A stretch of DNA of 64,000 nt from Hydrogenovibrio thermophilus. GTDB taxonomy: Bacteria; Pseudomonadota; Gammaproteobacteria; Thiomicrospirales; Thiomicrospiraceae. The position numbers and the translations under genes are program-made. Under the pieces are notes generated by a model. It had not been told where the DNA came from. It ran no database searches and saw only the letters and a program-made list of their open reading frames with translations. Location of the stretch: positions 930,001-994,000 of the forward strand of contig NZ_CP035033.1 of NCBI RefSeq assembly GCF_004028275.1, in the 5' to 3' direction. Below, piece by piece: positions 22,829-28,417 of the stretch (its first letter is position 1; every line of letters starts with the position of its first letter).

Positions 22829-24733
22829 TTAAATCAATTTGCCGGCATAATCTTCGATGCCCGGGTTATCGGCAATGCCTTTCAACGTCGGGTGATTGAC
22901 TTTTTTAAGTTTCATGTCCGAACGCTGGCCGCGTAAGTGGTCGGCGACCACATCCCAGATCAAACGACCGTCACCGACTTCCTCCACTTGCCCCCAGCCA
23001 GCGACGGTGTAGGTTTTATTCGGTTCAATCGGTGTGCCGTCGTCCAGTTGCATATGGGTAATACGTTGGCCGAGCGAGGCCTTCGGTTTGCAGGTGTAAT
23101 CCATGCCGCCGAGTCGAACCATGTCACCGCCGGATTGCAGGTAAGGGTCTTTCTGGAAAATGTTCTCACATACGCCTTCCAAGGTGTCTTTGATTTGCGC
23201 ACCGGTCAATTCGGCTTTGTAGGTTTCCCCATAGGTCATGGAGGTTTCGTCCATCACGCGTTCCATGGTGATGGTTTCGCCCGCCAGCACCGAGGTGCCC
23301 CAGCGCACACCCGCGGACATGGCGATTTGGGTGTCGTGTTCTTCGCGCAGGGCGTTGACGATGATTTGGTCCCAAGTGCCCATAAAGTTACCGCGACGGT
23401 ATAAGGTGTCTTCGGCCACGGCCAATTCTTCGCTGAGAATCTGCTCGTAGGTTTTGCCGAGGCGTTCCGGGTTATAGGCGTATTTTGGGTTACGCGATTC
23501 GACAATCGACTTGGTGTACTGCGTTTGACGCAGATTGGTGATGAACTGGTCCACACCGGCATCGGCCGCCAACTCGTTGGAGAAGACCGGCAGCAGGCGA
23601 TAATGCATGCCGCGCAATTTGCCGTTTCGGATATCCAGGTCCATACAGCCGACGAACTTGCCGTTGGAACCGGCGTTGGTCACTTGGCAAACATGCCCGT
23701 CCGGAGCTTTCACCGGAATGGCTTTTGGAATGCCGTCGTGCGTGTGGCCACCGAAAATGGCGTCGATGCCGTTGACGCGTGATGCCATTTTGATGTCCAC
23801 GTCCATGCCGTTATGAGAAATCATAATCACCGCCGCGACTTTTTCGTTTTCGCGGATGTGATTGACCGTTTCCTGCATGGAATCCTCCCGCAAACCGAAG
23901 GACCAATCCGGGAAGTTGGCGCGCGGGTTGGCGTTGGCGGTTCTCGGGAAGGCTTGGCCGATGACGGCGATACGTTCGCCGTTTACCACCTTGACGGTGT
24001 AAGGCTTGAACGGCAGGGCGCTGTCTTCGTCGTATAAACCGATGCCACCGTGTTTTTCGGTCATGTCACGATAGGCATCGCCGAACAGTGAATCTTCTTT
24101 GATGCGCATGTTCTGGGCCAGAAATTCGCCTTTGAATTTCTGAATATTGGTCAACACCTCGTCTTCATGATAGGTGAATTCCCAATGCCCGGTCATGATG
24201 TCCACGCCGATCAGGTTCGACGCTTCCACCATGTCTTGACCACGTGTCCAAAGCGCCGTGCCCGAACCGTGCCATAAATCTCCTCCATCCATTGTCAGGG
24301 TATTTTGCTGGCCACCCGCTTGCTCTCTGAGTTTGTCAAGTAGGGTTTTGAGATGGGCGAAGCCGCCCACTTTGCCATATTGTTCCGCCGCATCCTGAAA
24401 GTTCAGGAACGAAAACGCATGGGCCAAGGGTGTGTTGTCGGCAATGTTCAGTTCTTTCAGAAGTTTGTGGCCGACCACGTGTGGCAGTTGACCGTAAGCG
24501 GGACCGACGCCGAGGTTGACGTTGGGTTCGCGGAAATAAACCGGTTTCAATTGCGCATGGGAGTCGGTGATGTGCAAAATGCGAGCGGTGCCTTGCATGG
24601 GCACCTGATAGATGTCTTTTGAAATGGCCGTTCCTTTGGGTTGGGAAGACATCGCCAGGCCGGTGCCGGGTAATAGGCCTGCGGCGGCGGCCATGGACAT
24701 AACGTGTAAAAACTCGCGTCGATTCAGAGACAT
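22829..24733 (-). CDS. soxB: SoxB thiosulfohydrolase
   Basis: Periplasmic Mn-dependent enzyme of the Sox thiosulfate-oxidation complex; it hydrolytically releases sulfate from the SoxYZ-bound intermediate. The N-terminus is a Tat signal (LNRREFLHVMSMAAAAG). The 5'-nucleotidase-type metal motifs are present: ITDSHAQ, DGGDLWHGSGT, the SoxB-type TGHWEFTYH, MISHNGMDVD and GGHTHDG. ATG at 24733 follows AAAGGAGAG. No other sox genes are next to it, as in Thiomicrospira relatives where sox genes are dispersed. A tetrathionate/thiosulfate-type sensor pair lies upstream on the same strand, and a structured repeat element lies in between. Confidence 0.97.
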   Translation of the reverse strand: MSLNRREFLHVMSMAAAAGLLPGTGLAMSSQPKGTAISKDIYQVPMQGTARILHITDSHAQLKPVYFREPNVNLGVGPAYGQLPHVVGHKLLKELNIADNTPLAHAFSFLNFQDAAEQYGKVGGFAHLKTLLDKLREQAGGQQNTLTMDGGDLWHGSGTALWTRGQDMVEASNLIGVDIMTGHWEFTYHEDEVLTNIQKFKGEFLAQNMRIKEDSLFGDAYRDMTEKHGGIGLYDEDSALPFKPYTVKVVNGERIAVIGQAFPRTANANPRANFPDWSFGLREDSMQETVNHIRENEKVAAVIMISHNGMDVDIKMASRVNGIDAIFGGHTHDGIPKAIPVKAPDGHVCQVTNAGSNGKFVGCMDLDIRNGKLRGMHYRLLPVFSNELAADAGVDQFITNLRQTQYTKSIVESRNPKYAYNPERLGKTYEQILSEELAVAEDTLYRRGNFMGTWDQIIVNALREEHDTQIAMSAGVRWGTSVLAGETITMERVMDETSMTYGETYKAELTGAQIKDTLEGVCENIFQKDPYLQSGGDMVRLGGMDYTCKPKASLGQRITHMQLDDGTPIEPNKTYTVAGWGQVEEVGDGRLIWDVVADHLRGQRSDMKLKKVNHPTLKGIADNPGIEDYAGKLI

Positions 24734-24769
24734 GGATTGACTCTCCTTTGTTGAGGGCAATTCGGTTAA

Positions 24770-24991
24770 CCTTTAGTGGATTCTGGCAACGCCAAATTCG
24801 TCAGATCAAGGCGTGAAGTTGCAGGAATGTCTAGACCTTGCAAGACTTCACAACGTGGAGGTGACCGAATTTGGCTAAGCCCCTTCGGGCGGAACTAGAA
24901 GACGACATCTTAGTTGTTGTGACTGGTAACTAAGGTCAGCGAGCCACGCCTAGAATATGCAGTCCTTTAGTTCCGCAGAATTTCACTAAGG
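24770..24991. repeat. 222-bp nested inverted-repeat element upstream of soxB
   Basis: The ends are imperfect inverted repeats (CCTTTAGTGGATTCTG at 24770 and CAGAATTTCACTAAGG at 24976). Inside lie three arms: CCAAATTCG.../CGAATTTGG (24792-24874, with inner GTGAAGT/ACTTCAC), a small hairpin GCCCCTTCGGGC (24879-24890), and GCGGAACTA/TAGTTCCGC (24889-24976, with inner CTTAGTT/AACTAAG). The whole would fold as a closed junction. TTAA lies next to the left end and ATTAAT next to the right. It may be a small non-autonomous mobile element or a structured leader RNA of soxB; I cannot tell which. No ORF is inside. Confidence 0.6.
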
Positions 24992-25082
24992 ATTAATCGA
25001 GTTGCCCTTTAATATTCACTTATGGGATTTGAAACTCAAAACCAGTTTACGAATTTCTCATGAAAACCATATTGGGAGGGTT

Positions 25083-25108
25083 CCTAAATCGATTAGGGTT
25101 TTCCCTAA
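25083..25108. promoter_or_regulatory. Symmetric CCTAA/TTAGG cluster, candidate regulator site for soxB
   Basis: CCTAA (25083), TTAGGG (25093) and CCCTAA (25103) form two overlapping dyads with 5-base and 4-base spacers. They lie about 350 bases upstream of soxB, just downstream of the NarL/FixJ-type regulator gene. The half-sites are about 10 bases apart, suiting a dimeric helix-turn-helix protein. There is no T-run on either side that would make it a good terminator. Confidence 0.45.
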
Positions 25109-25145: not shown

Positions 25146-25775
25146 TTAGCTTTCCGATGATGGGACGGGGTGGTCTTTACCAGCTTCGATGGCGAGCCGA
25201 ACCAGTTCGGTGACGGTTTTGACGTCGAGTTTCGACATTAGGTTCGCACGATGCACTTCGATGGTTTTGATGCTCAGGCACAATTGGTCGGCGATGATTT
25301 TATTGGGGTGACCTTGCAGGACGCCGGTCAATACTTGGGATTCGCGTTTGGAGAGCTGTTCGAAGCGGTTTTGCAAGGCATCGGTCTTTTCCTGATGTTT
25401 CTGCAAATCGTCGTAATGGTGAATCGCCAGTTGGATACGTTCCAGCATGTGTTGGTCGTTATAGGGTTTTTCGATGAAGTCGAAGGCGCCTTCTTTCATG
25501 GCACGAATCGCCATCGGCACGTCGGCATGACCGGTGACGATGATGACCGGAAAATCCGGGTCAATGTGTTTGATGGACTGATGCAGTTCCATGCCGTTCA
25601 GGCCGGGCATTCGTACGTCGAGCACCACGCAACCGGGCAGGCCTGGTGAAAATGCGTCCAAAAAGGCCTGGCCGTTTTCATACAGGCGGGTTTGCAGGTT
25701 GACCGATTCCAGCAACCATTCCAACGACTCCCGTACCAGACGATCGTCGTCCACAACATACACGCAAGGTTCCAT
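25146..25775 (-). CDS. FixJ/TtrR-like response regulator
   Basis: Receiver domain with VDDD, phospho-acceptor in CVVLDVRMPG, VTGHAD and EKPYND, followed by a LuxR-type helix-turn-helix (LSKRESQVLTGVLQGHPNKI, IKTIEVHRANLMSKL). The start is ATG 25775, which overlaps the stop of the kinase gene (TGATG) and follows GGAGG; a longer frame upstream lies inside the kinase gene. It belongs to the FixJ/TodT/TtrR group. With its kinase and the neighbouring soxB it probably controls thiosulfate or tetrathionate metabolism. Confidence 0.92.
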   Translation of the reverse strand: MEPCVYVVDDDRLVRESLEWLLESVNLQTRLYENGQAFLDAFSPGLPGCVVLDVRMPGLNGMELHQSIKHIDPDFPVIIVTGHADVPMAIRAMKEGAFDFIEKPYNDQHMLERIQLAIHHYDDLQKHQEKTDALQNRFEQLSKRESQVLTGVLQGHPNKIIADQLCLSIKTIEVHRANLMSKLDVKTVTELVRLAIEAGKDHPVPSSES

Positions 25776-28186
25776 CACGCGTTTTCCTCCGAAGTGTTTT
25801 TGCGAGCCTTCCCAGCTTCGCACAAGGGTAATTCAAACATAAATTGCGCGCCTTCGTGAGTGTTGCAGACGTGCAATTGGCCGTAATGCGCCTCGACGAT
25901 GCTGCGGCAAATCGCCAGCCCCAGGCCCATGCCATCGGATTTCGAGGAATGGAAGGCATCGAAAACATGGGGCAAATCTTTTTCCGGAATACCGGGGCCG
26001 GTGTCGGACACCAGAATGCGCGCGGTATCGGTTTGAGGATGAATGTCAACCGATACACAGCCGTTTTCCTCGCACGCATCAATGGCGTTGCGAATCAAAT
26101 TCAGCAAGACCTGTTCGATTTGAACCGGGTCGCCGACGACACAGACATCGCCCTGCAAGGATGGCGGAATCAATGTTACGGTATGTTGTTTGGCTTCCGA
26201 GTCCAGCAATGACAACACGCGTTTCAAAGTGGCATTGAGTTGGAAGGCTTCTTGGCGTCGTGCGCCGGTTTGCACGAATTCGCGCAGACGACGGATGATG
26301 TTGGTGGCGCGATCAAGGCTTTCCAAAGACCGGGTCAGGCCGGTTTTGAGATGTGACGGTTGGCTGTCGTCCAGACGTCTCAGGCTACCGCTGATGTAAT
26401 TGGTGGCGGCGGTCAGCGGCTGGTTGATTTCATGCGCCAGACCGGAGGCCATTTCGCCGACGGTGAACAGGCGGGTGACTTTGCCGAGTTGGGTGCGATA
26501 TTTGTCATGCTCGGTTTCGATGTCCTGACGCTCGATGCTGGAGCCAATCCATTGGGTGATGAGGCGCAATAACTCTTCGTCCACTTCGGCCAGTTGCCAT
26601 TGTGCGATGTTCTGCCCCACGAACACCAGCACGCAGTGCGGTTGACCATTGACCTGTACGGTGAAAGTGATGACCTGGCCGGCGCAAGGCGTGTCGGAAA
26701 ATTGCAGAATGGCTTGGCTTTTGAATTCCGGCAAGTGACTTTCCAGACACTGTTTCAGTTTGGACTCTTCGGGGATGTCCCCGTCGGAAACGCACAACGA
26801 CAGCGCCGGGTGTGGGCCGTCGGGCAGTTTGTACAAAAACGCGGCGTCCATGCGGAAATGGCGGCGCGCCAATTGAATCAAACGCAACAGTTTTTCCGAT
26901 TGGGGGAGACGAGTGTCGACGGAAATTTCGTAAACTCCTTGCAGCGCGGCGCGGCTGCGACGTAACGTATCTTCCACCTTTTCCCGGGCTTCGATGTCTT
27001 GTTCCAGCGCTTGGTTGACTTGCGAGAGTTCCACCGTGCGGTCGGCGACTTCTTTTTCCAGGTTGTCGCGGTGTTTGGCGAGTTCGGATTGGGAAACCGC
27101 CAGTTTCCGGTTGATGCGGCTCATGCGCGCGGAAAAAGCCGACAACATCAGAATCAATACCACAATCAAGCCGACGGCGAGGCCGTGTTCCTGCAAGATG
27201 GCCTTGAGACTGATCTGCTTGCTCGGCTCGTAAGGTGGCAGCTTCAGGGCGCGAAGCAAACCATGCACGGTGGTGAAGTCTTCGGCGCGGGTCCAGCCAT
27301 AGTGCGGGTTATAGGTGCCGGGCGCGGTGCTTTTCGGCATGGCTTGCAGGGTGCGGGAAACCTGGCGGGCCAGCGCAATATCGGTGTGTGCCAATCGGAT
27401 CATCGACCATTCCGGATAGAGAATGCTGCTGTGCAGCAACGGGTAAGGGCCGGTGTGCTGCGGGTGGATGACTTTGATTTGGTTGGCGGGCAGTTGGTTT
27501 TGGTCCAACAGCGATTCGATCAAACCGGAACGGATAATGCCGATATCGGCTTCTTCATTGATGATGGCGCGAATAATCGCTTCTTGAGACCCGTTGGTGA
27601 ACAGCAGGTTGAAAAAGTCTTTTTTGGGGGCGATGCCGGCCAGTTGCAGTTCTCGCCAGATCATCTGGTAGCCGCCGAATTCCGACGGCGACACCGCCAT
27701 GACGCTTTGACCCTTCAAGTCGGACAGGCGTTTCAGGTCACTGCGGTCGGCCCGGGTGATGAGTGCGGCACCGAAATGACTGTAAGGCCGAGTCTCATAA
27801 CGGGTTTGCAGCGTGGCGATGGGGTGGACATCGTCGGTTTTTTCCAGCGCGACGATTTGCGACGGATTGGTGATGGCGAAATCGAGCTGTTGTTTGTTAA
27901 TGGCGTGGGTCAGGCATTCCGGTCCCATGGATTTGATGACGAACTGGTGGTTGGGAATTTCTTTGGAAAGCCATTGTGCGGTCTTCGCCCAAAAGGCTTT
28001 GTCGGCTTCGGTATTGCGCAAATTCAACACGCCGATGTCGACGATGTCGGCCCGAACGGCGGACAACGGCATCAGCAGGGTGATGGCTAATAACCCGATT
28101 GAAATGCGTAATGGAAAGGGAGAGTGAAGCAAGAGGTTGGCCTTTTTAAAATGGTTCAATGTCGTCGTATTTGCTTTTTTTAGCAT
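25775..28186 (-). CDS. TtrS/ThsS-like sensor histidine kinase with PhnD-type periplasmic sensor
   Basis: Signal/anchor helix (RISIGLLAITLLMPLS), then a periplasmic-binding-protein-like sensor of about 270 residues (VDIGVLNLRN, DFAITNPSQIVALE), a second membrane helix (VGLIVVLILMLSAF), a coiled linker, a GAF-like segment and a kinase core with SGLAHEINQPLTAAT, NLIRNAIDAC and SDTGPGIP/GMGLGLAI. Kinases of this architecture sense tetrathionate (TtrS) or thiosulfate (ThsS). ATG 28186 is chosen as the first Met that keeps the signal helix near the N-terminus. The sulfur-compound ligand is inferred from architecture and the linked soxB. Confidence 0.88.
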   Translation of the reverse strand: MLKKANTTTLNHFKKANLLLHSPFPLRISIGLLAITLLMPLSAVRADIVDIGVLNLRNTEADKAFWAKTAQWLSKEIPNHQFVIKSMGPECLTHAINKQQLDFAITNPSQIVALEKTDDVHPIATLQTRYETRPYSHFGAALITRADRSDLKRLSDLKGQSVMAVSPSEFGGYQMIWRELQLAGIAPKKDFFNLLFTNGSQEAIIRAIINEEADIGIIRSGLIESLLDQNQLPANQIKVIHPQHTGPYPLLHSSILYPEWSMIRLAHTDIALARQVSRTLQAMPKSTAPGTYNPHYGWTRAEDFTTVHGLLRALKLPPYEPSKQISLKAILQEHGLAVGLIVVLILMLSAFSARMSRINRKLAVSQSELAKHRDNLEKEVADRTVELSQVNQALEQDIEAREKVEDTLRRSRAALQGVYEISVDTRLPQSEKLLRLIQLARRHFRMDAAFLYKLPDGPHPALSLCVSDGDIPEESKLKQCLESHLPEFKSQAILQFSDTPCAGQVITFTVQVNGQPHCVLVFVGQNIAQWQLAEVDEELLRLITQWIGSSIERQDIETEHDKYRTQLGKVTRLFTVGEMASGLAHEINQPLTAATNYISGSLRRLDDSQPSHLKTGLTRSLESLDRATNIIRRLREFVQTGARRQEAFQLNATLKRVLSLLDSEAKQHTVTLIPPSLQGDVCVVGDPVQIEQVLLNLIRNAIDACEENGCVSVDIHPQTDTARILVSDTGPGIPEKDLPHVFDAFHSSKSDGMGLGLAICRSIVEAHYGQLHVCNTHEGAQFMFELPLCEAGKARKNTSEENA

Positions 28187-28221
28187 AGCTATTTTTTTCA
28201 GGACGGCAAGGTGGTTTTTGA

Positions 28222-28231
28222 CCAGGCCTGG
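28222..28231. repeat. CCAGGCCTGG palindrome in the divergent promoter gap
   Basis: Exact copy just upstream of the sensor kinase start. The surrounding 23 bases (28211-28233) are identical to 11061-11083. Confidence 0.85.
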
Positions 28232-28417
28232 GCAGAATGCTGATTGATCGTGGCCCAAATCCAAGGATAGAAGCCGTTTATGTTGTTCTTAAAAATAATT
28301 GATTTAGCTTAAGTTTTATTTGATAGCTGGCGGGCATCTATTGCGTTATACTCGTTGCAAAATATACTACGTATTTTTGATAGAACAATTGATGAAACAA
28401 GATTGAACAGGCCCGAT

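Follow-up and report, generated by a model that had tools for sequence, protein, structure and literature searches.

MITEs are usually regarded as empty passengers that are defined by their ends. Integron attC sites are variable in sequence and conserved in structure, and they form strand-specific hairpins with conserved unpaired bases. The folded stretch before soxB in Hydrogenovibrio thermophilus is a small non-autonomous transposon of which there are some ten to twenty copies, and inside it lies a stem-loop module that resembles attC sites in being a structure-conserved, strand-specific hairpin with conserved unpaired bases; other bases are conserved and the module resides within MITEs, and by this description the two are set apart. 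With IS5-family MITEs the element shares IS5-like terminal repeats, a 4-bp AT-rich duplication, an intergenic position, a length of about 260 bp and the lack of an ORF, but it differs from them in holding two inverted strand-specific stem-loops that are not in the IS and in that this stem-loop is also found in MITEs with other ends. The accessible portions of two accounts (PMC10969869, PMC5896051) describe QMITE1 and QMITE2 of Coxiella, Correia and ERIC as 100-300 bp MITEs with stable folds, which are sometimes transcribed or found in mRNA leaders. As far as those portions go, QMITE1 and Correia differ from the element here, which has no IHF consensus, in possessing an IHF site, and none of the four is credited with an internal module conserved across a class. 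REP, REPIN and BIME sequences, associated with RAYT transposases, are likewise short inverted-pair hairpins in intergenic regions of gammaproteobacteria for which single-strand recognition is plausible, and all REPs of the published set have a GT(A/G)G head (PMC2817692). In contrast, the module here is without this head and is not located beside Y1_Tnp genes, and the element that carries it has DDE-type ends with target duplication.

The window, i.e. the whole stretch of 64,000 nucleotides that was analysed, contains the following features of the element and its surroundings:

24755-25007, no strand: whole MITE, 253 bp here
24755-24785, plus strand: left terminal inverted repeat, GGGCAATTCGGTTAACC...ATTCTG
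24976-25007, minus strand: right terminal inverted repeat
24751-24754: left copy of the 4-bp target duplication, TTGA, matching at 3 of 4 positions
25008-25011: right copy of the 4-bp target duplication, TTTA
24791-24875, plus strand: arm 1, the stem-loop module in plus orientation, CAAGGC...AACGTGGAG
24879-24890, plus strand: small GCCC hairpin between the arms, GCCCCTTCGGGC
24891-24974, minus strand: arm 2, the second module in inverted orientation, damaged in the soxB copy
24924-24925: junction at which 11 bp (CTTGTCCTTAG) are deleted in comparison with the sister species' orthologous copy
22829-24733, minus strand: soxB (634 aa; TIGR04486, 738 bits), downstream of the element
24742-24749, minus strand: soxB Shine-Dalgarno sequence (AAAGGAGA), just outside the element
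25093-25108: palindrome TTAGGG..CCCTAA, a possible regulator site

A sequence-only reading had described a 222-bp stretch with inverted ends, three internal arms and second-level inverted repeats. All of these are present, and the 222-bp stretch has a fold energy of -81.9 kcal/mol on the plus strand (z -5.0) and of -79.4 kcal/mol on the minus strand (z -5.3), with none of 200 shuffles being equally stable. The structure is therefore as described, but the bounds had to be corrected: with GGGCAATTCGG... and ...CGAGTTGCCC as their outer limits, the terminal repeats reach 24755 and 25007, giving a true unit of 253 bp, and the other full copies measure 262-264 bp. The four helices of the fold are the terminal repeats (24755-24785 with 24976-25007), arm 1, the small GCCC hairpin and arm 2. 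Neither a long ORF nor a transposase gene is present inside the 253-264 bp element. At the tip of arm 2 the soxB copy lacks 11 bp that are kept in the sister species.

The suggestion that this is a small mobile element is borne out by many copies, terminal repeats, target duplications and empty sites. The proposed BLASTN of the element against its own and related genomes gave some nine copies in the 2.61-Mb H. thermophilus genome, strong matches in 27 of 63 genomes of the bacterial family and, at a loose cut-off, copies in 26 of 38 near genomes; carriers include Hydrogenovibrio sp. JE_KL2, Thiomicrorhabdus cannonii, T. marina and T. chilensis. About 40 copies from this family have terminal inverted repeats of 31-32 bp in common, and an exact 4-bp target duplication flanks 17 of 40, whereas shuffling gave a mean of 1.6 and at most 6; duplications of 5 or 6 bp were not in excess. 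The 4-bp duplications are 86% A+T. The copies adjoin unrelated genes, and their ends fall into two families, GGGCACCTCGATTAACC and GGAACCTCTGATTGAATC, each altered on both sides together. Shorter versions have one arm (154-187 bp) or the ends alone (50-64 bp), and remnants of the latter size, consisting of nearly only the two MITE ends, are seen at C1:2594770-2594819 of the H. thermophilus genome and at two further loci (L113, L123). For the elements tried, plasmid and phage collections gave no match. As a MITE, the element is ordinary.

Three further observations were made on individual copies. The H. thermophilus chromosome record begins within a MITE copy, which is therefore split across the two record ends (C1:1-103 and 2612735-2612894). 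In one relative (G020), more than 80 matches to the end sequence were found, many of them 37-54 bp from contig ends, the pattern expected if the element was active recently, reached a high copy number and broke the assembly at its full copies. About 70 bp from another MITE copy lies a c-di-GMP-I-GGC riboswitch (L031 726-800, corresponding to C1:1184125-1184199 of the H. thermophilus genome; 61.9 bits, above the gathering score).

In a relative (G076), an IS5-family transposase (NF033581, 271.6 bits; DUF772 and DDE_Tnp_1) is encoded by an IS that measures about 1.26 kb and has GGGAACCTCGAATAAC at its ends, and these ends are similar to those of the MITE (GGGAACCTCGAATAAC against GGGCACCTCGAWTAACC). 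Because of the ends and the length of the duplication, we infer that an IS5-family transposase, acting in trans on the ends, moves or has moved the MITE. No clear target duplication flanks this IS, an autonomous element ending exactly like the MITE was not assembled, and the module was not found inside the IS5 elements examined. Given that the H. thermophilus genome gave no match to a PF01609 (DDE_Tnp_1) transposase, its own MITE copies are probably relics, i.e. fossils.

The two large arms are the same stem-loop module in opposite orientations. It consists of an outer stem, an internal loop ATCAAGGC/AACGCNGAG and an inner hairpin, and its invariant unpaired bases are TCAAGGC and AACGC.GA. The exact class-wide pattern ATCAAGGC-N37-41-AACGCNGAG is matched in 47 of 369 gammaproteobacterial genomes and up to 48 times in a single one, whereas a control pattern gave 0 in every listed genome. 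A few matches that proved to be coding sequence containing these words (L208, L213, L216; probably greA) were removed. A covariance model of the module (R1) recovers arms 1 and 2 on opposite strands at constant spacing, matches arm 1 at 24795-24870 with 60.4 bits, and finds 31 modules in the H. thermophilus genome and, at E <= 1e-4, modules in 107 of 398 genomes of the phylum, some outside the class, in a sample that is uneven and rich in some families. The MITEs that bear the module have very different ends (e.g. GGGAAGCTCTGATTGA, TAGTGTCCTGTCCCGCAA, TAGTGTAGTGCGTCCCAATT and GGGCCTGTTAACA), and a second type of module-bearing element, with ends GTGTAATGTCCTAAATAAAATG, is present in the H. thermophilus genome itself. 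The module is single in some elements and an inverted pair in many.

The statement of the sequence-only reading that no Rfam family has this outline held: no match overlapping the element attained the gathering score of its family, and at gathering and permissive thresholds no Rfam model matched on the element or the module. An M23 near-match on one distant copy was rejected as lying in GC-rich background. Similarly, a candidate IS with module ends (G031, inverted pairs 1085 bp apart) was rejected because ordinary genes occupy the interval. No description of the module was found in the open-licence literature. In total, a strand-specific module common to MITEs with different ends is absent from Rfam and has no published account that we found in that literature.

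The fold is conserved at both levels. Among 32 full copies of the element, two-sided compensatory changes occur in 49 of 86 pairs, and 95.3% of cells pair (83.0% when shuffled, 31-50% when slid). In an alignment of 28 diverse modules, two-sided changes occur at all 24 pairs, 88.9% of the cells are paired (50.0% shuffled, 34-40% slid) and the covariation score is 1.01 as against 0.26. Lack of both covariation and a second copy had been named as what would speak against the earlier proposals; instead, the pairs covary and the copies are many. The same proposals had taken many copies to indicate a mobile element and covariation to indicate an RNA. Since the structure covaries and the element is mobile, both are true and the dichotomy fails.

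If the module were a mere double-stranded palindrome, G.U should be about as common as A.C. This is the case in the terminal repeats (28 and 20, respectively), whereas in module orientation there are 119 G.U and 17 A.C (both stems of both module types, counted over distinct helices and ignoring kinship), and in a wider set of inner stems 41 and 3, again ignoring kinship. Arm 2 of the element's own family, read on the plus strand, has 8 G.U and 23 A.C, the reversed bias that is expected of a module on the minus strand. The excess of G.U over A.C argues that the module is read as a single strand; by this test it acts as one, with RNA and single-stranded DNA fitting alike. Folding of the module is confined to one strand, so that on either strand of the element there is exactly one module in the correct orientation.

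Our preferred reading is that the module serves the element as a cis-acting hairpin, which would be single-stranded when recognised. Alternatively, the module could be a functional RNA made from the element, working as an sRNA or, as a structure, protecting or processing host transcripts, in which case the inverted copies would ensure that one is functional whichever way the element is transcribed. The single-strand signature with G.U far above A.C, the conserved internal loops and the inverted pair in many elements would all fit such an RNA, but the same G.T bias is expected from single-stranded DNA, Rfam has no match, and no consistent sigma-70-like promoter was found inside the copies. Moreover, elements with a single module lie in random orientation to flanking genes (10/7/6/6 at 29 single-module sites), which gives no hint of RNA function and led us to reject a cis-RNA with a preference for the gene strand. 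We consider a functional RNA unlikely, if still worth weighing. The IHF consensus WATCAANNNNTTR was found in none of 32 copies, even with one mismatch.

The compensatory changes could also stem from the mutation process, by template switching in quasi-palindromes or gene conversion between arms, and not from selection on the fold. Such correction occurs in long imperfect palindromes, and the terminal repeats covary in the absence of a strand bias. However, template switching would remove mismatched internal loops, yet the loops are conserved, and it predicts no excess of G.U over A.C, yet such an excess is found in the module. We regard the mutational account as improbable.

At soxB, the element lies upstream of the gene with its end 5 bp from the Shine-Dalgarno sequence. 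The palindrome TTAGGG..CCCTAA is kept in congeners without the element, suggesting that the insertion took place downstream of the likely promoter and so within the leader; by position, it is probably inside the soxB transcript. In the sister species (G010) the element occupies the same position, whereas three congeners with the same response-regulator/soxB order (L162-L164) have empty sites. Directly upstream of soxB-1 (window 25146-28264, minus strand) is a two-component system. Its response regulator is closest to FixJ/TtrR, though below both cut-offs, and its large histidine kinase, whose N-terminus looks like a periplasmic-binding type, is possibly a sensor of thiosulfate or tetrathionate. 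A second soxB paralog (C1:1774521-1776422; protein 81% identical) has a different upstream gene and no element.

The sequence-only reading had raised a leader RNA that controls soxB, for instance in the manner of a riboswitch or thermosensor. The 5' position, the strong covariation and the stable fold of the transcript strand (z -5.1) are what such an RNA would have, but the same element neighbours many unrelated genes, is missing from the soxB of the three same-order congeners and from the paralogous soxB, and in the soxB copy has lost 11 bp of one arm. In a computed fold of the leader, the element pairs with itself. Between the sister species the element has diverged by 2.8%, i.e. at the rate of the adjacent spacer (2.9%; soxB fourfold sites, 11.4%). 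No association of the element with soxB across species was found among the family genomes and the three congeners. A soxB-specific function thus finds no support, and we judge a regulatory leader RNA very improbable; the element at soxB is probably a passenger in the 5' leader.

Like REPs, the module might be a single-stranded DNA hairpin that a Y1 transposase (REP-associated, IS200-like) recognises. This is suggested by the two inverted hairpins per unit as in REPINs, by the single-strand signature and by Y1_Tnp genes over the cut-off in 20 of 21 module-rich as against 14 of 20 module-poor genomes, but is largely refuted and hardly credible given that no module flanks any of the 20 Y1_Tnp regions examined, that the module is without the GT(A/G)G head and that DDE-type ends with 4-bp duplications are not a Y1 product. 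In several genomes, Y1_Tnp (RAYT-like) genes (L328-L340) are flanked by inverted GGGGTCAGACTC/GACCCC-type repeats, which are apparently their own REP-like ends.

Our main explanation is a non-autonomous MITE, presumably moved by an IS5-family transposase, inside which two opposed conserved modules would function as cis-acting single-strand sites and of which any effect on soxB would be incidental, a joint reading in which we have high confidence. In this model, the transposase would act in trans on the ends, and the module would be a site of the element itself, recognised by a protein as single-stranded DNA or RNA and kept because elements carrying it multiply or persist better. The element would have inserted between the likely soxB promoter and the Shine-Dalgarno sequence in the ancestor of the two sister species, and within the soxB leader it would probably be transcribed and fold on itself.

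More tentatively, and with slightly less than even confidence, we propose that the module with the ATCAAGGC/AACGCNGAG loop represents a new class of structured single-stranded module, present singly or as an inverted pair in MITEs with unrelated ends in gammaproteobacteria and at least one other class of the phylum, which a conserved protein recognises and which has spread on several transposon systems. Here, the conserved part of a MITE is its interior, a stem-loop in which unpaired bases are invariant and pairing is strand-specific. The covariance model makes this family of modules searchable. Roughly one in four of the phylum's genomes in this uneven sample has the module, with terminal repeats that differ, which suggests that the hairpin is read by some factor of the host or of transposition. 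If this is true, one cis-element would have spread over several transposon systems by means of its recognition by a conserved protein.
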